A DNA stretch of 36,133 nucleotides. Source: Candidatus Endomicrobium labiotermitis. Lineage in GTDB: Bacteria > Elusimicrobiota > Endomicrobiia > Endomicrobiales > Endomicrobiaceae. The notes beneath the pieces were generated by a model, which made no database searches, was not told the DNA's origin, and saw only the letters and a list, made by a program, of their open reading frames with translations. Numbering within the stretch: position 1 is the stretch's first letter; each line of letters starts with the position of its first letter. This document shows positions 2,819 to 28,713 of this stretch, in pieces. Where the stretch lies: NCBI GenBank assembly GCA_009778965.1, contig WRFE01000009.1, positions 1 through 36,133 on the forward strand, written 5' to 3'. Position numbers and translations under genes: made by a program.

Positions 2819-4018
2819 TCAGTTATTTTCATTTTGTTCATTTTCAGATGACTTGTAAGGCACCAAATGCGCCCCCCATCCGCCTTCCTTAGCATCATTA
2901 TACGCATTAATAGGATTATTTTTATTCTTAAAAGCCTTCAAATAACGGGCATACCTTTCTGCCGTTATTGCCGCTGCAACAACGCCTATTATTTTCGGCG
3001 GAACTTTCGCCTTGTGCAAACTTTTTATAAACTCTCCGGTTTTAGCTAAAAACAATACATTATAAGACATTCGAACCATACTGTCCGGAATCCCGGTATT
3101 AGTGTCCTCTTTATCAGGGAACATAGTTCCTTTGGTATTATATATCGCGGCGGCAGAATAAACGGTCATAGCCTGAGGATAAACAATCTTCAAAAGTCCG
3201 GAAAACAACGGTTTATCGGATTTATCTTCCTTATATTTCGTCATTGAAATCTTAATTTTTTGCTTATAAAAATTTTCTTCATCAACAACATACCACGAAT
3301 AAGGCTTTTCGTAATGTTTTTTCTTAGGCACATATTCATTATATAAATTACCAAGTTCCGATAAAACCTTTGCCGCGGGAAAAATATCTTTCAGAACATC
3401 CTGCAGAGCCGAGTCTGCAAACGCCGGATAAGGATTATAAACAATATGAATCTTGTTTATAGTTGTATTAACGGTTTTAAGATATTTTATTCCTTTCTTA
3501 TTTCTTTTAATCCCGAAATATTTCTCGGCGCTTTCAAGAGAAAAATCCGAGTAAGCTCCTGGCATTTTCAGAAAATATCCCTTAAAAAGATTTTCCGTGA
3601 AAATAGCCTTTCCGTATGCCAGATGTAATTCTAAGGCTTCCTCTTGAAGATCTTGTAATTTATCAACCCAGCCTTTAAGCCTTGCGACATCTTCATCTTT
3701 TTCTTTATGAAATCCGCTTGCCAAATCTCCGGTTATATAAGCGGCGATTATGTCTGTATTATAAGACGGCATCTGAACCAAAAACGGATCTGTTCCAAGA
3801 GAAAGAAGCGACCCGATTAAATAATTGACGTTTCCCACAAAATTCATTGTTCTGGCTTTATGAACAGCCAAAGAAAGAGCCGCATTATCAACAGCATTCT
3901 GCATTGCCATTCTGTCTCTTATAAGCTTGGCAATGTTTAGCATCATAGCCCAGCTTATTACGAGTATCAGCGTGAAAACAAGAAAATAATATAAAGTCTG
4001 CCCTCTGTTATTCATCAA
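2819..4018 (-). CDS. TadG-like pilus-assembly/secreted protein (399 aa)
   Basis: This appears to be a membrane-anchored protein of the Flp/Tad type. The start MMNNRGQTLYYF leads into one hydrophobic helix (about residues 10-30), and then DRMAMQNAVDNAALSLAV, the hallmark of the Tad N-terminal domain in TadG-like proteins. The remaining 350 residues are predicted extracytoplasmic and show no recognised domain; they are Lys/Tyr-rich with hydrophobic stretches. Unlike its two upstream neighbours it has Tyr rather than Glu at position +5 after the Gly, so it may not be cleaved by prepilin peptidase. Its start overlaps the end of the TadE-like gene by 11 nt, which suggests coupled translation. Its job in the pilus is unknown. 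Confidence 0.7.
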   Translation of the reverse strand: MMNNRGQTLYYFLVFTLILVISWAMMLNIAKLIRDRMAMQNAVDNAALSLAVHKARTMNFVGNVNYLIGSLLSLGTDPFLVQMPSYNTDIIAAYITGDLASGFHKEKDEDVARLKGWVDKLQDLQEEALELHLAYGKAIFTENLFKGYFLKMPGAYSDFSLESAEKYFGIKRNKKGIKYLKTVNTTINKIHIVYNPYPAFADSALQDVLKDIFPAAKVLSELGNLYNEYVPKKKHYEKPYSWYVVDEENFYKQKIKISMTKYKEDKSDKPLFSGLLKIVYPQAMTVYSAAAIYNTKGTMFPDKEDTNTGIPDSMVRMSYNVLFLAKTGEFIKSLHKAKVPPKIIGVVAAAITAERYARYLKAFKNKNNPINAYNDAKEGGWGAHLVPYKSSENEQNENN

Positions 4019-4658
4019 AATTCCTGGCTCCGGGATAGGCTTTATAATAATAATCTGAATCCGGCGAAGGTACCATTCTGCTTCTTGACGATAAATATCG
4101 CCTGTTTCCTCTTGATGTATCTTTTGCTACAAGAGAGCCGAACATTACTCTTGTATAATAATAAATTTTTGCCGTATGCGGACGAATTATATTTCCTGAA
4201 TAATCTTTATCCCAATCTATCTGTTCCGCAGCTTTTTTTGACCTTGTATACACTTTAAATGCTTCAGAAGCATTATTCTCTGACTCAATTTCCTCTTCTT
4301 CATCTGGCTCTTCATCGGCAGGATTGCCGTTTTTCCTATAAAACTCCCAAACCGTTTTTTTATCGGAATAACCAAAATTGCTTTTATCTAACAGTTTTTC
4401 AATATTTGAAAAAGGATTCAAAGAAGAATAGTACGGGCGCAAATAATTTTTCGCCCATTTTTCCGCTTCTTTAACTTTATCCTTACTGTCTCCTTTTGTA
4501 ACTGATACCGAACGCATTGCAACAAAAGCCGCTTCATTAAGCGTCATATCGTCAACAACCATTATGCAGATCTGCAAAAACGCAAACATAATAATTGTCG
4601 TAAAAACAACCACAAAAAGCGCTTCAATCAAAGATTGTCCGGAGGAATTCTTTATCAT
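4008..4658 (-). CDS. TadE-like prepilin/pseudopilin (216 aa)
   Basis: The N-terminus KNSSGQSLIEALFVVVFTT is a TadE-type class III signal: Gly(-1), Glu(+5), then one membrane helix to about residue 33. DDMTLNEAAFVAMRSVSV follows, which fits the TadE segment after the helix. The rest is hydrophilic, with an acidic stretch near residues 115-128 and many Ser/Tyr/Arg at the end. It overlaps the next gene by 11 nt and the previous one by 4 nt (ATGA), so the three genes are surely one transcript. A role as minor pseudopilin is inferred from family and context. Confidence 0.72.
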   Translation of the reverse strand: MIKNSSGQSLIEALFVVVFTTIIMFAFLQICIMVVDDMTLNEAAFVAMRSVSVTKGDSKDKVKEAEKWAKNYLRPYYSSLNPFSNIEKLLDKSNFGYSDKKTVWEFYRKNGNPADEEPDEEEEIESENNASEAFKVYTRSKKAAEQIDWDKDYSGNIIRPHTAKIYYYTRVMFGSLVAKDTSRGNRRYLSSRSRMVPSPDSDYYYKAYPGARNFDE

Positions 4659-4846
4659 TTGACGTAACCGTCGTTTTTAGATATTACACCTTGAACGCTT
4701 GAAGGCAAGCCTGCCGACTCTTTCGTACGGTCATATCTTGATTTCCATGCTTTTTTATACAATTGAAAAGCGCCTGCGGTTACGGCAAGCAAAACCAAAA
4801 AGACAAGCAAAAATTCAACTAAAGTCTGACCTTTAATTGATTTCAT
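4655..4846 (-). CDS. Small TadE/Flp-like prepilin (63 aa)
   Basis: This 63-residue protein has KSIKGQTLVEFLLVFLVLLA, with Gly(-1) and Glu(+5) before a single hydrophobic helix, then a short basic tail. It is the right size for a Flp-type pilin, but the sequence GQTLVEF is closer to TadE. It could be the main fibre subunit or a truncated TadE. It ends in a 4-nt overlap with the next gene. Its ribosome-binding site (AGGA) lies inside one arm of a 27-bp inverted repeat that starts at the base before the ATG, so translation may be controlled by RNA folding. Confidence 0.7.
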   Translation of the reverse strand: MKSIKGQTLVEFLLVFLVLLAVTAGAFQLYKKAWKSRYDRTKESAGLPSSVQGVISKNDGYVK

Positions 4847-5012
4847 ATGGACGTCCTGAAAAACCCTGATGTTTTAGATTTGCTGCGAATTTTACGACAA
4901 TGCGAGGCGTAAAAACGCAGGGCGTATCCGAAGATACGGACAAGTTTTTTAACGAAGCAGTGCCGCTAAAGGCGCCGTGAAGATGAACGTCAGGGTTTTT
5001 CAGAACGTCCAT
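4847..5012. repeat. 166-bp palindromic element with 27-bp arms
   Basis: The arms 4847-4873 and 4986-5012 are inverted copies that match at 25 of 27 positions. The centre carries GCGAGGCGT...ACGCAGGGCGTATCC and a small GTATCCGAAGATAC hairpin, so the RNA could fold into one long branched stem. It fills the whole gap between the secretin stop and the next ATG. A 60-codon open frame across it is made of repeat sequence and is not called as a gene. Confidence 0.8.
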
Positions 5013-5015
5013 CAT

Positions 5016-5726
5016 TTATTCCGCGATAACTTTTGTGGTTACAAAAATCAAAACGTTAGTTTTCGTTTCGTAAGTTTTATTTACGGAAAACAAAGCGCCT
5101 AAGACAGGAATATCGCAAAGGAATGGAATGCCTTCGACAGTTTTTCCTTTCGTAGTTTCGATAAGACCCGCCAAAACCATAGTTTCGCCGTCTTTAATGC
5201 GCAAATGCGACGAAGCTTCCCTTTTGGCAATGGAAGGATAACTTGAACCCGGAGCATTATGGTCAAGCCTTGAAAGTTCCGTTCTTATTTCTATATCTAT
5301 TTTGTTATCTTTTACAACAGTCGGAATAATTTCCATCATTATACCATACGGCTTCCATTGAATCTCATTAGTTCCGATTGCCGTAGTCGGACCGGGAAAC
5401 GGAAATTCACCCCCGACCATAAACTTTGCCTTTGTTCCGGACTTTGTAATAAGTTTCGGTTTTGAAAGAACTTTTGCCGCGCCGTTTGTCTCCAATGCTT
5501 TTATTGTAGCCGAAAACGCAGTCATCCTTTCCCAGGCGCCTGATTCTATTATAGACGGAATTGACGACTCAACAAGCCTGATTTCATCAGGCAGTTTAAT
5601 CCCGAGTTCTCTGGACTTATTTTCATTGATTTCAGTAATTTCAACGGAAATTTCAACCATTTGATCGCTGTATGATAAAGACGCAAAAAACAAACATACC
5701 ATAAAACATAAAATAATCTTTTTCAC
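5016..5726 (-). CDS. Minimal secretin-domain protein (CpaC/GspD-like, 236 aa)
   Basis: Secretins form the outer-membrane gate of type II, type III, type IV and Tad systems. This protein has a signal peptide (residues 1 to about 20, MKKIILCFMVCLFFASLSYS), then directly the secretin core: VEISVEITEINENKSRELGI, KVLSKPKLITKSGTKAKFMVG, the gate region GEFPFPGP, IKDGETMVLAGLIE, and the signature PFLCDIPVLGALF near the end. The usual N0/N1/N3 domains and the BON domain of CpaC are absent, so it is about half the family length. The start is GTG with AAAGGA 9 nt upstream. It leads the Tad-like gene run, and context supports a pilus-exit role. Whether such a short form can build a pore, or works with another secretin, is open. 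Confidence 0.85.
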   Translation of the reverse strand: MKKIILCFMVCLFFASLSYSDQMVEISVEITEINENKSRELGIKLPDEIRLVESSIPSIIESGAWERMTAFSATIKALETNGAAKVLSKPKLITKSGTKAKFMVGGEFPFPGPTTAIGTNEIQWKPYGIMMEIIPTVVKDNKIDIEIRTELSRLDHNAPGSSYPSIAKREASSHLRIKDGETMVLAGLIETTKGKTVEGIPFLCDIPVLGALFSVNKTYETKTNVLIFVTTKVIAE

Positions 5727-17632: not shown

Positions 17633-20600
17633 TTATGCGGAAACTAATATTGCCTTTGCAGACTCAAATATTTTGTTAAATTCTTTTTTGGGAATTGTCA
17701 TTTTAATGCCGGAATCGTTAAAAGCGTCAAATAGCATTGCAAAATATGCCGCAGAAACCGGATCTCTAAAATTTCCGCCGGCGGCAAATCCGTCTTTTCT
17801 GACAAAAAATTCCGGCAATGTAAGATTTTCCTCAATATAAAAACTGAGCGTTTCAAGAATATGGCTTTTCTGTGAGTAAGGAATAAACAAAGAATAATAA
17901 TACAAATAATACGGATAGGCTTTCCCGTTTTTAACACCTCCGAAAGCGTTTAATGAATACCGGGCAAAATCTTTAGCAACACTGTTTCTGTCTTCTTCTT
18001 TAAAAACTCCGTTAAGCCTGCTTAAAGAAAATAATAGAATAATATCCGGATTAAAATCTTCTTGAGAACTAAAATATTTTTCACTCAAGGCACTTGTTTC
18101 ATCGGCAATTTCTTGTTCAAGCAGTAAAACTTTCGGCTGATTTCTGGCAAGTTTATTGAAATCGCGGCAAACATTTAAGGCGTTTAAATATAAAGCGTCA
18201 ATTTCAACGGAGTCCCAAGCCGACTCACCGCATATATCAATAATTTCATTTAAATAAGAAACAAATCTGGAAGAGAATTCATATTTTTCCGGAACATCCA
18301 AATCATTCATAAAAAGAGAGGCCTGTTCAACAAGCCATAACAACGCGGCAATGTTATCATTACTTCCTTTATCATATATAATTTCCCAGTGTTTAAAATA
18401 TTCACGCAGCTTCAATGTAAAATTTTCTTTATCCTTAGTTCCGAGATAAAGACCGTATAATGACATTGTATCTTTTGTATTCGGAATAAAATTTAAAAAA
18501 TTATTTTTTATACAAAACGAATCCGCAAAAGCCGACAGCTTTGCTTTAAATAAAGACCGGGCTGAACCATATTTATGATGTATGACCCCGTTCATAAATC
18601 CCATAAGCTGCATATTATATAAATGTCTTTCATCCTTCGATGCGGATTTATTTCTCAATTCAAGATTATCTATGTAACGCATTAACGGAGAACTTGCCTC
18701 GAAGCCTTTCAAATGTTTTTTAGCCAATGCAAACAGAGCTCCGCTCTCGGACAGATAGCCTAAAAGTTCCTTTTCTTTAGCGGTATTAGTCCTGATATAA
18801 GAATATAAAGCGCTAAAAATTAAGATGCCTTTAGCGGTTATTCTGTAAACGGAATCTTCTTCATCGGATATTGTAATTTTTTCAGATTCAGCGGCAAGTT
18901 TTTTGTTTTTAAGAGCGTCTTCATATCCTTTAGCATAATATTGAGATGAATTCACGTAAGCAGACTTTAATATATCTTTTTTGCCTGCTCTTATGGCGTC
19001 AAATTTCATTCCTGCGTCTCCCGCAAACGACAAAGGAATATTTATACGCTCGGAACCGTGTTTTTTAACAGTTTCCATCAATTCTTCAACACTTGAAGAA
19101 TCGGTCAAAACGGTTTTTATAATAATATTTTGGTTTTCAGAAACTCCGGAAGCAAGCAAATAAGTATTTTCAGCGGCAGGATAAGCATTTATATCTTCAT
19201 CTTCAAAAATTAAAATCATTTTACCTGTTATGCCATTTTGGAGTCTCTTTCGCAAATAAGCGGATATACGCTGCTTGCTATGATATGAATCTATATTTGC
19301 GATCAAAAATCCGCCAGCTGACAAATAATCCCTTAAATATTCAAATTGTTCCATAAAGTAAAAGTTCTCGGGATTTGAATTATATTCAGGTAAAACAGCA
19401 GCTTCCCCGTCATTGCTTATTTCAAAAAAGCCGTCGTTAAAATCAACGGAATCTTTAAGAAACATTAGGTTTGCTCTTATAATAACGGTTATTCCTTTGG
19501 ACTTTAATTTCTTAGAATCTTCTTCCAGCTGTTTGAATACCACAAATTCCATATATTTTACCTGCTCTAAAGCGGCATTCCATTTTTGCGCGTTAGCGGA
19601 TTTTATTTCAGAAAGTTCGTCTTCCGTTACAATAGTTCTGCCGCTCAGAATTAAGGCGGTTATATATTCAAAAGATTTTTCGCCTTTAACGGCAAATTTA
19701 CTTTTTTTGAATTCTTCAAATTTGTCTGTCCCGCCTTTTTTTGCCTTTAAATATTCCAACAGCATTCCGGCGGCGAAAAATCTCGGCACAATGCTTTTCC
19801 ATGTTTTTAAATCCGCTTTTTCATCAAACAGCATATTAAAAAAGCTATTTTCTGCATATCCTATTTCCGCCGCTTCTCTGCGCAAGTCTGCAAGCATAGG
19901 ATTAAAAACATTCCCTATAACGCATCCTTTTTCGGTTTGGGCAAATAAATTTGAAATAACCACCGAGGTTATTACTTTTGTATCAACAAGATTCTCAAGA
20001 GCGGATATATCCGAAATCGTATTAAGCGTTAATGAAGGCGTTATTTTTCCTATAATTCCCGTATTGGCAGAATCATTATGAATATTTTCGGATTTCTTTA
20101 ACGACAAGTTGTTTATAAGCTCAAACAGATTACTTACGTATTGTTTCGCGTCGGCATAAAAATTACTTCTGTCAAGCCTTATAAGCTTATATTCTTCGGA
20201 GTCAATACTCGCGGTAACGCTTCTGTTAAAACTCAAAAGAAAAGAAGCGTCTGAAAACAACGCGGACAATAATCCCACATGCAGTTTATTGTCCGTAAAA
20301 ACATTAAAACGCTCGGTATCCTCGGAAAGCCTCAAAGCTGTTTTAGCATCCGGATTTAACGAATAAACATCTCCGTTTATATCTTTATTTACGTACAAAC
20401 TGCAAAAATTTATTTTAGAAAAAGTTTCATCATTATAAAAACGGTCGTCTACAATCTCCGGAAACGCAAAAACCCCGCTGCCGTCCATTGAAACCACGGA
20501 AATTAAATTATCTTTTAAAGAACGGCTGATTATTTTTTCGACGCCTTTTAAATCTTTTCTGCAGGATTCGGCTTCTTTTATAAAAGCAAGCATAGCTCTG

Positions 20601-23600
20601 CCGAGAAACATTTTTTTCCTTAAAGCGTCTTCGCCGGTTTCGTATTCCGGAGATAAAATACTTTTTATTATAATGTATTCCTTATCGCTTAAAATCCCCT
20701 CGTATAACGGCGTAAAATTTACGACAAACGATTTGTCGGAATTTCTGCTTACCGAAGCTTTCGCCGATATAACAACATCTTCTAACGGAACATTTATTAT
20801 TATTTCCGATTCCGGCGGATTTACAAAATCGCCGTCAAGAGCCGAGCATATTGAATTTACCCCGGCGTCGCCGGACGCAGACGCGTGCTTTATATAATCC
20901 GGAGTGAGATTAGGCGTTAAAAAAATAAAAGTTTTTGTTTTTGATTTTAAATTTTCCGTAATTTCATTTGCAATAACATTTGAAAAAGAAATGGGATTTA
21001 CGGAAGCCTTAACCGCGGAAACAGCCGCTCCCGCAGAAACTTTCAAAATGTCTTCCGATGAGTCTTTCGGCATCTCAATTTTTTGATTTTCCGTATTATC
21101 TAAAAATTCTTTTACTGACAGGTAATACTTATCTTCAGGTTTAGCTCGGCTCATAAGAGATTCCGGAGGATGAACGATATTTACAGTTAATTTTTCTTCA
21201 TGATTTTCATAAAAACGCTTTTGTATTTCAAAAATCTTATCAAAAAAATCGTAATATTCTTTCCTTGTTTCTCTGTCGCTTATGCCGGATATCATTTTCG
21301 CAAGATATGTATCAATATTTTCGCCGTTTTTCATCATCACGTACGGTATCATTATGTGGCTGAAAAAATCTATTTTAAATTTTCTGCCGTGATAATTCGA
21401 TATAAATGACCGCAGCTCATTCATATAATCCGAAAGATATTCCATTTTAGCATCATCCAGAGAGAGAGAAGAAATCCCGGAAAATGATGAAAATTGCTCG
21501 CTGGTTCCCTGCCTGTTTAAAATATTCTCAAGAGTTGAGCGCAAAAGAATATTCGAAATTTTTTCGACGTCGAGAGTCTTATATATTTTCCTTACCAGAC
21601 TTTCCCCGGGTCTTTGCTCTCCCGCTTCACCGCTTATAAAAGCCGGAATATCCTGCGATTGTATCTGTCTGTAATCGGAATCCGCGCTTAATAATGTTAT
21701 ATTCCCGGAGGAGTCAGCTAAATTTCCTAAATACAAATACGAAGGGTCAGCTAATACTATATTTCCGTTTTTATTGCTATTTTGTATTAAACCTACCGCA
21801 TTTATAAGAGAAACTTCAAAAGGCGTAGTTTTTTCGCCGCCTATTGAAACCGAATCAAATATATTCTCATAATCGGATTCATCTATATGCATAATTACCG
21901 CATTGATTTCCGAATTTTTTTTCACGGCGATTCCGGGATATTCCGATTTAAAATCTTCCGAATTTATATGTGAAAAAACTTCTATAACGGCGTTGCCGTC
22001 TCCTATATCATTTTTCGCGATATATTTTACCGTAAGATTTTTCATATTGCCTTTATTTTTTACGCCGGATATAAATGTTTTAATGTAACTCATTTTATCT
22101 TCCGGAAGGTCAGCAGAAATAAAAATAATATCAGGCATTTTACCGAAAGGAATTTTCCCGAATAAATCTCCGGCTTTCGATTTTATTATTCTATTTCTAA
22201 AAGATTCTATATCGTTCCTTTTCAATTCTTTGACCAATTTCCTGTCTCTTATAATATCTTTAAACCAAGAGTAAATTACCGGAATTATCGGTATCCAGTG
22301 CATGGCTACGGAAAGTCCGACGCCTGTTACTAAAGAACTGACCATATTAAAAGGAGTATTGAAAAGAATAGGATGTATCACTATATTTAAAGCAAAAATA
22401 ACCAGCGGCAGCGTCCTTGCAAGCATTTTTCTTACTTTCCAATGTTCGCTTATACCTATATTAAAACGTTCCGGGCGCTTTTTCGACTCCATATATTTTT
22501 CGGAAAAAAACATAAGATTTTTTTCATCGTATAATCCCGGGATAAGCCTGTTTCCGTGATAAATAATATTACGGACGCTGTTGATAAATCCTTTTTGCGA
22601 AAAATATATCCCCGCGTTTATACCCATAATAGATCTGACAATCTTAAGAACACCTGTTTTTTCAAGAAAAAAGAAAAACATTCCTTTTGAAACCCTGTAG
22701 CCGTTTAATATATCGGCGTTTAGCGCGTAACTTAAAACGTTATAATACGATTGCGCGTATTTACCGGCTTCCTCAAAATTCTTTATTTCTAACTCATATT
22801 TTTCCTTTTCATCATCTGGCATCTGTTTTATTTTTTTCATACTGAGTTTATGAAGTTTTATAAAATCCTGAATTATGGAAATAATCTGTTCTTTATTGTT
22901 AGAATTAAAAGAGTCTTGCGAGAAAAAAGTTATTCTTATAAGCTGTAACGCGTATTTTCTTATTATTTCCATATTATTCGCGTCAAAATCTTTTGAATCT
23001 AATACATTTTTCCATTTTATTAAATATGCAGCAGCCGATTCTTCCATACTTCTTTTAATAATATCCGGTAATTCTTCTCTATTGCCCGTATTTTCAAAAT
23101 GAAAATCATTGTCTATTTTTAAATTTAAATAAAGGTTTTCAAAATATTCTCCGCCGGAAGAAAAAAGATCTTTTATTTTGGCGTTGTAAAATGAATTACG
23201 TTTGCCTATAAAAATCATAAACCTATGTAAAAATATAGAAAGCCCTATTCCGGTAAAAACAGAATATATTATTTTAGAAATTGACGAAGTTGAACTGGCT
23301 GTTATAACTGCCGGAAGAGTATTAGATACAGCAAGAAATAAAGATAATATCCTGTGTATCGCCTTTCTGGTACTCCAGCTCTTTTCTATGCCAAGAGATG
23401 TTTTTTCGCCTGGAAATTCTTTTTCTTTTATATATTCTTCAATATCGCTTAAAAGCGCGTTATAATCATACATAGAATCATTTATATTATTCCCTAAAAC
23501 ATAAAGTTTATATGCCTGCCGGCGAAGTTTTTCTTTTTCTCTTTGAAAGTTTCTATGCATGCCGAAAATAAATCTGTTAAACGGCATTATTTTCAAACGC

Positions 23601-26600
23601 TCAAAAAGAGACGTCTTCGGAAATATATAGCCGCCAAGCACTGAAATATTTTCAAAACTGTCTAAAGTCCTTATGTATTCAAGAGCGTAATATTCCAGCG
23701 AAACAAACAAATTTCTAAGATTTTCAAGAATTTTCCTGTCGTTAAAATCAATTTCGGAATGATTTTCAAAATAATTATTTATACGTTTTATATCATATGA
23801 GCTTTTTTCGGCAATATTCTTATATAAAGAAACCGAATCTTTTCTTTCCAATGAATAATATTTTTTCTGAAGCCTGCTGTTAGATACTTCCAAAAAGAGC
23901 TCTTTGTAAGCTGATTCTACGGAATGCACAAAAAAATTATCGCTGATATCACCATAGTCAATTCTATTGATTAAATTTTGCCTGTAAATACCTTCCGGCA
24001 AAACAGGATTATTTGCCGAGGCATAATACGAATAAGGCTGGGTATAAGTTTTCAATGACAGATTTTCTATTATTTTTTGAAATTCTTTATTAATAGACGA
24101 ATCGAAAAAAGATGAATATCTGTCGTAAAATTCTCCGAATACGTCGTCAATGCCCATTTTCGTAAAATATGACAAAGAATCTTCGCCATTTTTCATTCTA
24201 AGGATAGGAATAAGAATATGCTGTATAAAATCTATGGAAGGAGGATCTATGCCGGATGAAGAATTCGTGTAAATATGTTTATATAGCTGCGAAATTCTTT
24301 CAAAAAAAGAAGAATACAATAAATCATCTTTAAAACTGAATAAAATATTCCCGGTAGTAGTCTCAAATTGCCTGAAATCACGGTTCTCGAGATTATCCAT
24401 TCTATCTAAAATGCCTTTTTTCTCAAGTTTATCCTTTATTTTCTCGCTGTCAAACATGTAATACATTTTTTTAATATCGCCTTGTTCGCTTATTATCCAT
24501 GGCATTTCATAATTCAAAATATCGCCGTAACTTTCCATTGAAGTTATTACCGTTATTTCTCCTTCCGAAATCATATTACCGACATAAATATTTTCAGGAC
24601 TCATTAAAGCAAGCCCGCCTTGACGGCGGCCAAAGGATTGGCACGCCCTTATTCCGTTTAACAAACTTAATTCAAACGGGGTTATTCTTCTCCCGTTAAA
24701 CTCAAACGGAATTTCTTTTCCCGTAACTTCCTTGCTTAAACCGTCAATATTAATCGCGCATATCTTCAGATCCTGCCATTTCTTATCTTTTAAATTTTGA
24801 AATTCATTTCCGGTTTTAATCGAATTCACATATTCTGAAATAGTTATAAAAGATGATCCCGTACCGTTATCAGATGTAGTAATAAATTTAATATTTGTAT
24901 TTGCCAAATGGGGCATATTTTCTATTATGCTCTTATAAAATTGAATATCTTCTTTATTTTTTAAACTGACAAGGATAATATCCGGCATTTTTCCGTTCAA
25001 AGAACGCAATGTTTTCAAATATTCGCCCGCGATAATTTCTTCTTTTGTTAAATCTTCTTTTACAACAGCCTTTTTACGACTGAATAACTTTTTAAAAAAA
25101 CGTTTTACGGTATCTTTAAAAGAAATCTTCTTATCTGGTTCTATTTTTTTAAAAATTATCTGATGTTCTTTTCCGATTGAAACCCTGAACGCAATATTTT
25201 TTTCAGAAAACCAGCCGTTTACCGACTGAACCGCCTGTTTTGAATAAATATTGCCAAAAGACGACCAAAAATCTATAAGAGCGTTTATTTCATTATTCTC
25301 AACTCCCGCGCTTAGCAAAGGCGGAGCCAAAGCCGAAGACGACAAACGTATAATATCTTTATAAACATTTTTTTGAGATTCTTTCATGACCGGGATTAAA
25401 GATATGAATGATATTTCATCTTCATTAAATAAATTAGCCGTATTTTTATGAAAACCGCCCATAATAGTGACATTAACGCTGCTGTATGTTTTCCCGCCAA
25501 AAACTGCTTTATTATCCGCTTTCATGTTTGCAATATTTTTCTTTATATTCTCGTAAAAAATAAGATTTCTTTTAATATTGTTTTCATAATAACGCAATAA
25601 ATTATTATCGGATAAAAGCTTTGCTACCTTCGCATAATCTTTTTCCGGAAAATATTTAAAAACGGTTTTTAAAATCAAATTTCTGTTTCTTAATAAATCG
25701 TTAAATTCTTCTTCTGAAACTGCAAGAGAAGCATATTTATCCAAAAGTTCAAAGAAAAAGTACAAGGCGGCTAGTTCTCTGTCTGATGACAGCGAAATAT
25801 TTTCAATAATATTGTTTTTTAGAAGAGAGGTTTGATATATCAGTGTTTTAGGATTTGAAGCATATTTAAGTTCGTTCAAATATAGCAATTCGGTCAAGGC
25901 TGAATGATCTGCCAAAACATTGTTAAAACGCTTTTTTAAAAGCTCAAAAAATTCAGACAAAAACTCTTCGCTTCCTGATTTCGAATATTTATCCGTAATA
26001 TAAATAAATTCTTTGTAAGGAATATTTGATTTTAAAAACTCAAACACCGAATATATATCTTTTTGTGCGGCTTTTTCATCCAGTCTTTTTTTTAAACCTG
26101 CTATTTTCAAATATTTATCTATTTCATCGTAATTTTGGACGACCGTACTATAACTGTTATCTTTACTTAACCCCGACTCGTTCAGATTATGTAATTCCGA
26201 TATTTTTTTTACCGTATCGCGCATCTCTTTGCTGAAATTATCATATAAATTTTCTTTTATATCAAAAAAACTGTTATTTGAATTATATATTCCGGCGGCA
26301 ATTTTTAAATTTTCCAGATATATATTCCAATCCTCTATGCCATAGATATCCTTAAATCCTTTATTTACGGCAAAAACTTCAGCCCCGCTTACCAAGCCGG
26401 ATAATAAAAGCGAATCTATTATTTTTTTCCGTTTTTCATAATCAGGCTGTAACAGACTAGAAATATCAATTTTTTCAGCCGGAGCTCCTTCGGTAAATAC
26501 CTGCGATAATATTCCATCAGAGTATAAACGCTCCAGGGTTTTATAAATTAATTGCTGGACTTGCGGATCTGAATGTAATTCGTTGATAAAAATTATAAGA

Positions 26601-26770
26601 GGCGTACCCGGTTTATACGATGAGTTTATTATTCTAAAATTATCAAGGATTTCAAAAGATTGAGAAGCATTGTGGTTATAATTTTTTGACGCATATACAG
26701 CGTCAAAAAATAAACTTATTAACAAACATAAGGAAACAATCAAAGATATTATCTTTTTTAATTTAAGCAT
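17633..26770 (-). CDS. Giant exported protein, 3,045 aa, with TraB/ChaN-like N-terminus and internal duplication
   Basis: I do not recognise the whole protein. Residues 1 to about 27 are a signal peptide (LIVSLCLLISLFFDAVYA). Residues 55-460 resemble the TraB/ChaN/EreA-like group seen in very large proteins of Omnitrophota and relatives: PLIIFINELHSDPQVQQLIY, FTEGAP, YGIEDWNIY and VTIMGGFHKNTANLF. Two copies of a module (about 594-925 and 1545-1880) share GKMPDIIxxS, TPFExSLxN, xxYxGNxxxxxxIT and IDFxxHIxIP..MKNGE. Between them lie two copies of another unit that ends in a pair of membrane helices (1136-1190 and 1447-1502), each preceded by a W-x-x-RK motif. Residues 1990-3045 are unassigned, helical at the end. 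The reading frame is uninterrupted. The ribosome-binding site is weak (GAG), and I find no convincing promoter. The gene sits alone between tRNA-Arg and yggS. Location is inferred as cell envelope. Confidence 0.85.
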   Translation of the reverse strand: MLKLKKIISLIVSLCLLISLFFDAVYASKNYNHNASQSFEILDNFRIINSSYKPGTPLIIFINELHSDPQVQQLIYKTLERLYSDGILSQVFTEGAPAEKIDISSLLQPDYEKRKKIIDSLLLSGLVSGAEVFAVNKGFKDIYGIEDWNIYLENLKIAAGIYNSNNSFFDIKENLYDNFSKEMRDTVKKISELHNLNESGLSKDNSYSTVVQNYDEIDKYLKIAGLKKRLDEKAAQKDIYSVFEFLKSNIPYKEFIYITDKYSKSGSEEFLSEFFELLKKRFNNVLADHSALTELLYLNELKYASNPKTLIYQTSLLKNNIIENISLSSDRELAALYFFFELLDKYASLAVSEEEFNDLLRNRNLILKTVFKYFPEKDYAKVAKLLSDNNLLRYYENNIKRNLIFYENIKKNIANMKADNKAVFGGKTYSSVNVTIMGGFHKNTANLFNEDEISFISLIPVMKESQKNVYKDIIRLSSSALAPPLLSAGVENNEINALIDFWSSFGNIYSKQAVQSVNGWFSEKNIAFRVSIGKEHQIIFKKIEPDKKISFKDTVKRFFKKLFSRKKAVVKEDLTKEEIIAGEYLKTLRSLNGKMPDIILVSLKNKEDIQFYKSIIENMPHLANTNIKFITTSDNGTGSSFITISEYVNSIKTGNEFQNLKDKKWQDLKICAINIDGLSKEVTGKEIPFEFNGRRITPFELSLLNGIRACQSFGRRQGGLALMSPENIYVGNMISEGEITVITSMESYGDILNYEMPWIISEQGDIKKMYYMFDSEKIKDKLEKKGILDRMDNLENRDFRQFETTTGNILFSFKDDLLYSSFFERISQLYKHIYTNSSSGIDPPSIDFIQHILIPILRMKNGEDSLSYFTKMGIDDVFGEFYDRYSSFFDSSINKEFQKIIENLSLKTYTQPYSYYASANNPVLPEGIYRQNLINRIDYGDISDNFFVHSVESAYKELFLEVSNSRLQKKYYSLERKDSVSLYKNIAEKSSYDIKRINNYFENHSEIDFNDRKILENLRNLFVSLEYYALEYIRTLDSFENISVLGGYIFPKTSLFERLKIMPFNRFIFGMHRNFQREKEKLRRQAYKLYVLGNNINDSMYDYNALLSDIEEYIKEKEFPGEKTSLGIEKSWSTRKAIHRILSLFLAVSNTLPAVITASSTSSISKIIYSVFTGIGLSIFLHRFMIFIGKRNSFYNAKIKDLFSSGGEYFENLYLNLKIDNDFHFENTGNREELPDIIKRSMEESAAAYLIKWKNVLDSKDFDANNMEIIRKYALQLIRITFFSQDSFNSNNKEQIISIIQDFIKLHKLSMKKIKQMPDDEKEKYELEIKNFEEAGKYAQSYYNVLSYALNADILNGYRVSKGMFFFFLEKTGVLKIVRSIMGINAGIYFSQKGFINSVRNIIYHGNRLIPGLYDEKNLMFFSEKYMESKKRPERFNIGISEHWKVRKMLARTLPLVIFALNIVIHPILFNTPFNMVSSLVTGVGLSVAMHWIPIIPVIYSWFKDIIRDRKLVKELKRNDIESFRNRIIKSKAGDLFGKIPFGKMPDIIFISADLPEDKMSYIKTFISGVKNKGNMKNLTVKYIAKNDIGDGNAVIEVFSHINSEDFKSEYPGIAVKKNSEINAVIMHIDESDYENIFDSVSIGGEKTTPFEVSLINAVGLIQNSNKNGNIVLADPSYLYLGNLADSSGNITLLSADSDYRQIQSQDIPAFISGEAGEQRPGESLVRKIYKTLDVEKISNILLRSTLENILNRQGTSEQFSSFSGISSLSLDDAKMEYLSDYMNELRSFISNYHGRKFKIDFFSHIMIPYVMMKNGENIDTYLAKMISGISDRETRKEYYDFFDKIFEIQKRFYENHEEKLTVNIVHPPESLMSRAKPEDKYYLSVKEFLDNTENQKIEMPKDSSEDILKVSAGAAVSAVKASVNPISFSNVIANEITENLKSKTKTFIFLTPNLTPDYIKHASASGDAGVNSICSALDGDFVNPPESEIIINVPLEDVVISAKASVSRNSDKSFVVNFTPLYEGILSDKEYIIIKSILSPEYETGEDALRKKMFLGRAMLAFIKEAESCRKDLKGVEKIISRSLKDNLISVVSMDGSGVFAFPEIVDDRFYNDETFSKINFCSLYVNKDINGDVYSLNPDAKTALRLSEDTERFNVFTDNKLHVGLLSALFSDASFLLSFNRSVTASIDSEEYKLIRLDRSNFYADAKQYVSNLFELINNLSLKKSENIHNDSANTGIIGKITPSLTLNTISDISALENLVDTKVITSVVISNLFAQTEKGCVIGNVFNPMLADLRREAAEIGYAENSFFNMLFDEKADLKTWKSIVPRFFAAGMLLEYLKAKKGGTDKFEEFKKSKFAVKGEKSFEYITALILSGRTIVTEDELSEIKSANAQKWNAALEQVKYMEFVVFKQLEEDSKKLKSKGITVIIRANLMFLKDSVDFNDGFFEISNDGEAAVLPEYNSNPENFYFMEQFEYLRDYLSAGGFLIANIDSYHSKQRISAYLRKRLQNGITGKMILIFEDEDINAYPAAENTYLLASGVSENQNIIIKTVLTDSSSVEELMETVKKHGSERINIPLSFAGDAGMKFDAIRAGKKDILKSAYVNSSQYYAKGYEDALKNKKLAAESEKITISDEEDSVYRITAKGILIFSALYSYIRTNTAKEKELLGYLSESGALFALAKKHLKGFEASSPLMRYIDNLELRNKSASKDERHLYNMQLMGFMNGVIHHKYGSARSLFKAKLSAFADSFCIKNNFLNFIPNTKDTMSLYGLYLGTKDKENFTLKLREYFKHWEIIYDKGSNDNIAALLWLVEQASLFMNDLDVPEKYEFSSRFVSYLNEIIDICGESAWDSVEIDALYLNALNVCRDFNKLARNQPKVLLLEQEIADETSALSEKYFSSQEDFNPDIILLFSLSRLNGVFKEEDRNSVAKDFARYSLNAFGGVKNGKAYPYYLYYYSLFIPYSQKSHILETLSFYIEENLTLPEFFVRKDGFAAGGNFRDPVSAAYFAMLFDAFNDSGIKMTIPKKEFNKIFESAKAILVSA

Positions 26771-27768: not shown

Positions 27769-28713
27769 TTAAACCCTTCTGTCTTTTTTTCTTCTGTCTT
27801 TGACTTTAGATACTTTTTTCTCCAAGTGCCGTCTGTCTTTCTTTCGGGATCTGCTGTCGAGCATCATTCTAGCCGCTTCGTCTTTATCTACAAAGCCGTA
27901 TCTTACAAAAATTCCTTTAAGCCTTTTAAAAGCCTTTAACTCAAGCTGACGAACCCGCTCTCTGGATACTCTTAAAACTTTTCCTATCTCTTCAAGCGAC
28001 ATAGGTTTTAGTCCGCCGATTCCGAAACGCATTCTGACGACTTCCATTTCTCTGACGGGAAGATAATTTAAAGCTGTCCCTATATCGGCGTTTGTTCTTA
28101 TTATTTCCGTAACTGATTCCGGAGATTTCACTTTTTCATCGATAATTATGTCTTTTATGAAAATTTCTTCTTCTTCATCTATCGGAGTTTCAAGAGAACT
28201 TGTTCCGTTAAATACCGCTGCGGATTTCAAAATATTTTCAGTCTGTTTTTTATTGAGTTTAAGTTTCTTGGAAACTTCGGCAACGGAAGGCTCTCTTCCG
28301 AGTCTATCCCTTAGAGTTGTCCATGTTTTCATCCAAAGATTAAGTGAGTCCCATACATGAGACGGAATTCTTATTGTTTTGGTCTGATTTTCTATTGCTT
28401 TGCGGATGTATTGTTCTATCCAATAAACCGCGTAGGTGGAAAAAGCCGTATTTTTTTTAGGATCGTATTTTTCAACTGCTTTGATAAGACCCATATTGCC
28501 TTCTTCAATAAGATCCATAAAATCAATGCCTTTTTTTATGAATCTTTTGGCAATAGGCACTACAAGACGGTAATTTTGCTCGACAAGTTTATCGAAAATT
28601 TTCTTATTCTTTTTTGACTTCTTCCATAAATCGCTCATTTCTTGACGGGACAAAGGCTTTATTTCGCTTATCGCTTTGAAGTACAATTTAAGAGGATCAT
28701 ATTGCGAGTACAT
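27769..28713 (-). CDS. Group-2-like sigma70 family sigma factor with basic tail
   Basis: This is an RNA polymerase sigma factor without region 1.1. Region 1.2 is near residues 5-26 (DPLKLYFKAISEIKPLSRQE). Region 2 has RLVVPIAKRFIKKGIDFMDL, IEEGNMGLIKAVEKYDP and AFSTYAVYWIEQYIRKAI. Region 3 has RLGREPSVAEVSKKLKLN. Region 4 has LPVREMEVVRMRFGIGG, MSLEEIGKVLRVSRERVRQL. At 314 residues it matches group 2 or a compact primary-like factor such as RpoS. After region 4 it carries an unusual basic extension, residues about 285-314, with three KKDRR/KDRRKKDRR-type repeats. AGAGGTG lies just before the ATG. tRNA-Pro lies directly upstream and apt directly downstream. Which regulon it serves is unknown. 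Confidence 0.9.
   Translation of the reverse strand: MYSQYDPLKLYFKAISEIKPLSRQEMSDLWKKSKKNKKIFDKLVEQNYRLVVPIAKRFIKKGIDFMDLIEEGNMGLIKAVEKYDPKKNTAFSTYAVYWIEQYIRKAIENQTKTIRIPSHVWDSLNLWMKTWTTLRDRLGREPSVAEVSKKLKLNKKQTENILKSAAVFNGTSSLETPIDEEEEIFIKDIIIDEKVKSPESVTEIIRTNADIGTALNYLPVREMEVVRMRFGIGGLKPMSLEEIGKVLRVSRERVRQLELKAFKRLKGIFVRYGFVDKDEAARMMLDSRSRKKDRRHLEKKVSKVKDRRKKDRRV

Follow-up and report, generated by a model that had tools for sequence, protein, structure and literature searches.

A giant, predicted exported mosaic protein of Candidatus Endomicrobium labiotermitis with a decayed alpha-glucan module

Giant proteins of Elusimicrobiota and the P0001 gene

Huge proteins are frequent in Elusimicrobiota and Omnitrophota (PMC11573180, PMC10066038), and these two reports, together with a lipocone survey (PMC12419801), also portray Elusimicrobiota as rich in huge proteins that lack a COG assignment. 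The lipocone survey describes Omnitrophota giants that combine polysaccharide enzymes, peptidases, and transmembrane (TM) segments (PMC12419801). Here we analyzed P0001, a gene for a 3,045-residue protein of Candidatus Endomicrobium labiotermitis, in a 36,133-nt stretch of DNA (contig WRFE01000009.1, hereafter the window) of which it occupies 25%. P0001 belongs to a multigene family found in Endomicrobia and other Elusimicrobiota, whose members are giant exported mosaic proteins with a plan consisting of a Sec-type signal peptide, a common N-domain, and a variable middle made of copies of ordinary cytosolic enzymes; the Endomicrobia members additionally carry a common C-terminal tail. Like the published giants of both phyla, the family members are very large, have TM segments, and mix polysaccharide enzymes, signaling domains, and peptidases. 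In contrast, a probable Tiki/ChaN-like N-domain, a conserved tail, and a small upstream gene are not described in the consulted passages of those papers (PMC10066038, PMC11573180, PMC12419801), and most family members, at 1,500-5,000 amino acids (aa), fall under the 5,000-aa limit of the huge-protein survey (PMC11573180). No description of the N-domain/tail frame was found in the open literature, subscription papers and preprints being outside the search.

At its C-terminal end, P0001 resembles the eukaryotic-type glycogen debranching enzyme (GDE) in having a glucanotransferase-like region followed by a GDE_C-like domain. Unlike GDE, it has a GH77 rather than a GH13-like GT domain, has lost key catalytic residues, and is predicted to be exported and fused to nucleotidyltransferase-like and membrane modules. 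On balance, we favor the view that P0001 is an envelope-anchored exported mosaic (pseudo)enzyme of the N-domain/tail family, in which degenerate glucan folds bind their ligands but do not process them; the protein is probably a glycan-binding or sensing protein. The homology of the C-terminal module, the loss of key residues, the purifying selection, and the conserved frame, hairpins, and tail are the established part of this explanation, from which we infer the topology, the glycan binding and biochemical role, and the functions of the N-domain and tail.

The first-pass annotation of the window had reported the intact frame without its strand; the reading was confirmed on the minus strand, where 3,045 codons run from an ATG at 26770 to a stop at 17633 with no internal stops. 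The host genome measures 1.89 Mb and is 99.97% complete, and the window is its contig 9. A hydrophobic, signal peptide-like core (residues 7-25; Kyte-Doolittle hydropathy 2.6) precedes modules in the order N-A1-B1-B2-A2 and then the C-terminal third. The features are as follows.

17633..26770, minus strand: P0001, complete open reading frame (ORF) of 3,045 aa plus stop (ORF reading, full-length orthologues)
26690..26770, minus strand: signal peptide, residues 1-27, boundary ...FDAVYA/SK (hydropathy and sequence)
25151..26638, minus strand: N-domain, residues 45-540, probable Tiki/ChaN-like fold with a large helical insertion (alignment, census, PF04187 in intermediates, model)
24011..25048, minus strand: A1, residues 575-920, sugar-1-phosphate nucleotidyltransferase-like, FKP GDP-fucose pyrophosphorylase fold (Foldseek 9iis)
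23051..23893, minus strand: B1, residues 960-1240, hairpin at residues 1130-1195 (23186-23383)
22091..23044, minus strand: B2, residues 1243-1560, diverged B1 repeat, hairpin at residues 1445-1512 (22235-22438)
21071..22063, minus strand: A2, residues 1570-1900, diverged A1 repeat (phmmer)
19901..20923, minus strand: C1, residues 1950-2290, tentative GT-B/phosphorylase-like remnant (PF00343 in the matching part of L048 and L049, weak Foldseek GT-B)
18671..19903, minus strand: GH77 (4-alpha-glucanotransferase)-like domain, residues 2290-2700 (Foldseek 6m6t, PF02446 in homologues, hhalign)
17681..18658, minus strand: GDE_C (amylo-1,6-glucosidase)-like (alpha/alpha) domain, residues 2705-3030 (hhalign, alignment, PMC4837477)
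17636..17650, minus strand: conserved C-terminal tail ILVSA-COOH, residues 3041-3045 (comparison of family C-termini)

Colinear full-length homologues of 3,143-3,150 aa were found in three independent genomes (G003, G015, and G027), with 50-71% identity to P0001 depending on the region; the G030 homologue is truncated at a contig edge, and a wider contig scan matched only the orthologue of E. embiratermitis. Comparison with this last sequence gave a ratio of nonsynonymous to synonymous rates (dN/dS) of 0.19 over the full length, 0.12-0.27 across all large segments, and 0.14-0.17 in the GH77-like and GDE_C-like modules, values that are approximate at a dS of ~1.2. Every segment of P0001 is under purifying selection, and the gene is real and maintained. 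The suspicion that the frame might be an assembly fusion was dispelled because full-length orthologues are present in three independent genomes. More generally, P0001 is very large and its enzyme modules are degenerate, as an assembly fusion or a decaying pseudogene might be, but its length and module order recur in independent assemblies and its stop-free frame has the low overall dN/dS given above, so that an artifact is already refuted by these results.

The C-terminal alpha-glucan module

When P0001 alone was compared with Pfam, NCBIfam, and PDB sequences, no significant match was obtained, and a profile of its C-terminal third gave a weak trail that led to 4-alpha-glucanotransferase (E 0.037) and then to other alpha-glucan enzymes. 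Relatives carried the named domains in the equivalent region. L048 (genome G059) and L035 (G049) have the N-domain in common, L035 also having an A-B-B-A module, and L049 (G064) matches the C-terminal profile; GH77 was detected in all three, a phosphorylase piece in L048 and L049, and GDE_C in L048 and L035. The scores were 2e-101 for PF06202 and 3e-39 for PF02446 in L048, and 9e-41 and 2e-14, respectively, in L035. For the GH77-like domain, PF02446 alone gave E 0.32. Foldseek matched the model of the P0001 C-terminal region to the amylomaltases 6m6t (E 5e-4) and 5jiw with a probability of 1.00 and to (alpha/alpha)6 glycosidases with a probability of 0.99. By hhalign, the last 300 residues aligned with GDE_C over 286 columns (probability 98.5, E 3.5e-15) and the GH77-like domain, taken with the intermediates, gave a probability of 96.6 (E 6e-10). 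Because the Pfam domains of the intermediates, the fold model, and hhalign agree, residues 2290-3030 are derived from a GH77 plus GDE_C unit.

The amylo-1,6-glucosidase of CgGDE requires D1241 and E1492 (PMC4837477), and analogy with Glu179 of glucoamylase would place D1241 within the motif ADGSLW. The general-acid Asp is lost in P0001, which has AALLW (within NIAALLW, 2806-2812) instead of this motif, and the position is also non-acidic in three aligned close orthologues (VALLW, TMLLW, and VLLLW); (A/E)DGSLW is retained in a stand-alone enzyme and in G049, G050, and G059. All aligned sequences have the glutamate of TLPE, residue 2987 in P0001. P0001 and its close orthologues lack the GYPWF-WGRD loop, and the GH77 RxDH site, which reads R-V/I-D-H in true MalQ sequences, is N-I-D-S in P0001 (2492-2495) and N-I-G-S (E. 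embiratermitis) or N-I-D-A in orthologues. The glucan module is intact in order- and class-level relatives and decayed in P0001, and the GDE_C-like domain, as judged from these residues, would be a descendant of GDE_C/GH133 rather than a functional member.

An active secreted polyenzyme that degrades glycogen or alpha-glucan, a single polypeptide with phosphorylase, glucanotransferase, and amylo-1,6-glucosidase activities, could be imagined from G059 and G050, which have a seemingly intact GDE_C in the same architecture and, in G059, GH77 and phosphorylase domains as well. For P0001 we regard such activity as very unlikely, given the replacement of the D1241 equivalent (PMC4837477) in it and its close orthologues, the lost loop, and the N-I-D/G-S/A sequence at RxDH. 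Since catalytic residues are lost yet dN/dS is only 0.14-0.17, the best reading of the glucan modules is that of a putative selected pseudoenzyme.

The N-domain family, its enzymes, and its tail

The N-domain profile was built from an alignment of 34 rows that covers the 530 residues following the signal peptide. H66, Q72, E94, G95, G144, E146, R401, F405, G438, G439, H441, and P460 (P0001 numbering) were invariant in 34/34 rows. The ExH, E, R-N, and GGxH residues correspond to the set expected for the Tiki/ChaN/TraB superfamily (ExH / E / R-N / GxxH), taken here as a lead; H66, E94, E146, R401, and G438-G439-x-H441 are the invariant residues that represent it. In common with Tiki/TraB/ChaN proteins (EreA-like; PF04187/PF01963), the N-domain has x-E/D-x-H at the first strand, a conserved E after the second strand, an R(N/D)-x-x-M/F helix motif, and a GG-x-H strand near the end; it differs from them by a helical insertion of ~250 residues and by N/Q as the first Gly of GxxH. 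PF04187 ("Tiki superfamily, ChaN") did not match the N-domain of P0001 itself, and it matched the N-domain region, ending at GGFH, in 6/6 giants from more distant Elusimicrobiota families (E 6e-6 to 6e-5). The AlphaFold model, in which the predicted local distance difference test (pLDDT) is mostly high over the domain, displays an alpha/beta core and the long helical insertion, and its Foldseek matches include the EreA-like structure 3b55, only at E 1.6. The N-domain is probably Tiki/ChaN-like.

One consequence of such a fold might be metalloprotease activity of the N-domain, which would cleave the protein after export and release its enzymes individually. The invariant H/E/GGFH set and the resemblance of the interiors to concatenated enzymes speak for a self-processing polyprotein of this kind; we nevertheless judge it quite improbable, as the Tiki membership is itself only probable and no conserved inter-domain cleavage motif was noticed, although no systematic search was made.

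In the host genome, the profile detected 14 N-domain proteins, whose open frames measure 705-4,557 aa and are in some cases truncated by contig ends; together they total 36,399 aa, or ~5.8% of the genome. Thus, the protein that had been annotated as single has 13 siblings. Across the phylum, the N-domain was found in 69/341 Elusimicrobiota genomes, the longest frame being 11,894 aa. It was absent by the same search from G002, a congeneric single-contig genome of 1.6 Mb, and is frequently missing in genus g8, which has many small genomes. One N-domain copy in G312 is broken by five stops and one in G034 by several, which suggests that the family is decaying in certain lineages. In the distant N-domain giants L248 and L251 (G087, G235), a triosephosphate isomerase domain was found (2e-34) and, separately, a response regulator with a weak sigma-70 region 4.

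The strangest aspect of the family is that predicted exported proteins carry cytosolic-type enzyme domains. The interiors of the host giants include Metallophos with LMW-phosphatase; PGM; PGM, ADK, and PFK; NDK and GNAT; SF1 helicase and GT2; and M48 with ABC1 kinase (L132:2398-16065, L127:3-6905, L128:3147-16604, L133:1823-8866, and L123:916-9960 are siblings with enzyme domains). Read by eye, their active-site motifs are mostly intact: NDK (H), PGM (TASHNP), LMW-PTP (CxxxxxRS), Metallophos (GDLH, GNHD), M48 (HEIEH), and helicase (GPPGTGKT). A further giant, L126:1-2085, is truncated by a contig end and has an EEFVFR motif that resembles CPBP (CAAX-like) intramembrane proteases, with no Pfam call.

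These siblings bear on whether the enzyme modules of P0001 are simply well-folding bulk without ligand specificity, in an inert giant coat protein that forms a surface layer or shield. A coat role was proposed for the giant ORF of Velamenicoccus (Omnitrophota) (PMC10066038), and the lost catalytic residues and the highly varied, unrelated sibling interiors would agree with it. We consider this unlikely, because module order is preserved over order-level distances, purifying selection still acts clearly on the decayed modules, and many sibling domains retain their active-site motifs.

Giants with unrelated interiors have the tail in common. Among 35 distinct complete family C-termini, 25 ended in [IVL]L-x-x-[AS], compared to 1/129 other ORFs from the same loci that were 300 aa or longer (Fisher p 2e-20, not corrected for relatedness of the sequences). 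The tail was present in 9/9 host N-domain giants with a complete C-terminus, and 12 further giants of the same class, looked at later, had it strictly in seven cases and as a near-match in three. When the whole genome was searched for I-L-[S/T/A]-A-A-stop, eight sites were found, seven of which are ends of large proteins; two of these had been missed by the N-domain search, their fronts being truncated by contig ends. The more distant families f18 and f20 end differently (ILSRQA, VIAQQA). A looser nucleotide pattern of the tail, applied to 30 genomes, gave forward counts close to the control, and the ORF-level test was used instead.

By an automatic test, a small ORF (165-224 aa) lies directly upstream of 18/61 non-redundant N-domain gene starts, with a gap of -40 to +56 nt. 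It has an N-terminal signal and a C-terminal TM helix, in several cases with LPRG[IV]P next, and was found at L034:7862-8401, L123:9960-10490, L125:12195-12824, L126:2081-2608, L127:6945-7448 (narrowly under the hydropathy cut-off of the automatic test), and L128:16649-17185, as well as at 13 loci in other genomes; the window locus lacks it. From the common N-domain and tail we infer that the giants share a step of processing, docking, or quality control. A bolder and distinctly tentative proposal is that Endomicrobia have a dedicated display system, which would export any enzyme, active or not, provided that the Tiki-like N-domain precedes it and the (I/V/L)L-x-x-A/S tail follows it. The small bitopic partner encoded directly upstream would often assist, and the tail would be a new type of C-terminal signal for sorting or quality control.

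Internal modules, topology, and meaning for the family

The repeats A1/A2 (~330 aa) and B1/B2 (~170-280 aa) were detected by phmmer with an A1-B1 query and missed in a BLASTP self-comparison. The two hydrophobic helix pairs (residues ~1130-1195 and 1445-1512) are kept across 16 homologues. For the model of residues 31-1230, the sole PDB match below 0.001 was 9iis, FKP GDP-fucose pyrophosphorylase (E 2.1e-4, probability 1.00), and the matching portion should be A1, judged by its size and fold class. A1 most likely has the FKP fold, whereas it shows 11% identity, a weak GxG motif, and a duplication around the membrane hairpins; variants of the G-x-G motif are only partly retained among homologues, and no Pfam match to A1 was obtained in any of the 16. 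A resemblance of the B domains to degenerate CPBP proteases (E-x-W-x-x-R, H) was supported by no tool. Foldseek also listed a large block of viral methyltransferases, with E values no better than 0.06, which was dismissed as noise.

Because a signal peptide and conserved hairpins are present, we propose that the chain would be exported by Sec and held in the inner membrane by its two hairpins, with the A, B, and C modules facing the periplasm or the outside. Our best guess is that the degenerate glucan-enzyme folds would bind alpha-glucans or nucleotide-sugar-like glycans without processing them; the N-domain and tail may serve all members in folding, docking, or processing. Delivery to the outer surface is uncertain, since LptD and BamBCD are missing from Endomicrobiaceae (PMC11257099).

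Several observations weigh against the favored explanation. The C-terminal model is of moderate confidence (pLDDT 67), and the GH77-like domain gave no significant hhalign result with true MalQ sequences only. The reading of C1 as a GT-B/phosphorylase remnant is tentative, and the A1 assignment depends on a single Foldseek match. In whole-ORF scans, the PF04187 matches of the intermediates were slightly under the Pfam cut-off (23.6-26.8 bits versus 27.7), with some giants over it in the genome search, and the Tiki assignment is no more than probable because hhalign of the N-domain profile directly against ChaN or TraB was not significant (probability ~1 or less).

The first-pass annotation had described a signal peptide, membrane-helix pairs, and few, long, diverged repeats, and all of these hold; it had also set aside an adhesin repeat protein and a nonribosomal peptide or polyketide synthetase, in keeping with the lack of Pfam or NCBIfam matches. 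That the protein is exported, envelope-associated, and conserved is supported. Of the important envelope or host-interaction role it suggested, the envelope part stands and host interaction continues to be conjecture. Its statement that no family could be named gives way to a probable Tiki/ChaN-like N-domain, nucleotidyltransferase-like A1/A2, and a GH77-like and GDE_C-like C-terminal third. A known enzyme does match most of the length in fold and ancestry, but P0001 is not simply such an enzyme, as its catalytic residues are lost.

The neighborhood is uninformative for the function of P0001, since the flanks of its orthologues differ. Close to the giant, positions 2819-5726 hold TadE/TadG-like pilus-type ORFs together with the gene of a protein that has a secretin domain (PF00263, 5e-44), and the E. 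embiratermitis orthologue directly adjoins the same cluster. An RpoD/RpoS-like sigma factor (27769-28713) and apt lie upstream of P0001; the gap from apt is 458 nt, and an operon link was not demonstrated.

Elusimicrobiota and Omnitrophota giants have so far been described with few annotated domains, and here a coherent family emerges with testable parts. Its members share a front domain and a tail, many are accompanied by a partner gene, and their interiors can be traced to enzymes with names. The N-domain profile enables annotation of such giants at phylum scale, and the intermediates document how, inside one protein family, an enzyme module decays and becomes a conserved pseudoenzyme. Questions raised are what binds the tail, whether the front domain is a protease, and why NDK, PFK, and debranching-enzyme folds would be exported. 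Our findings suggest that a shared front domain and tail around borrowed enzymes are a common, so far undescribed way to make very large envelope proteins.
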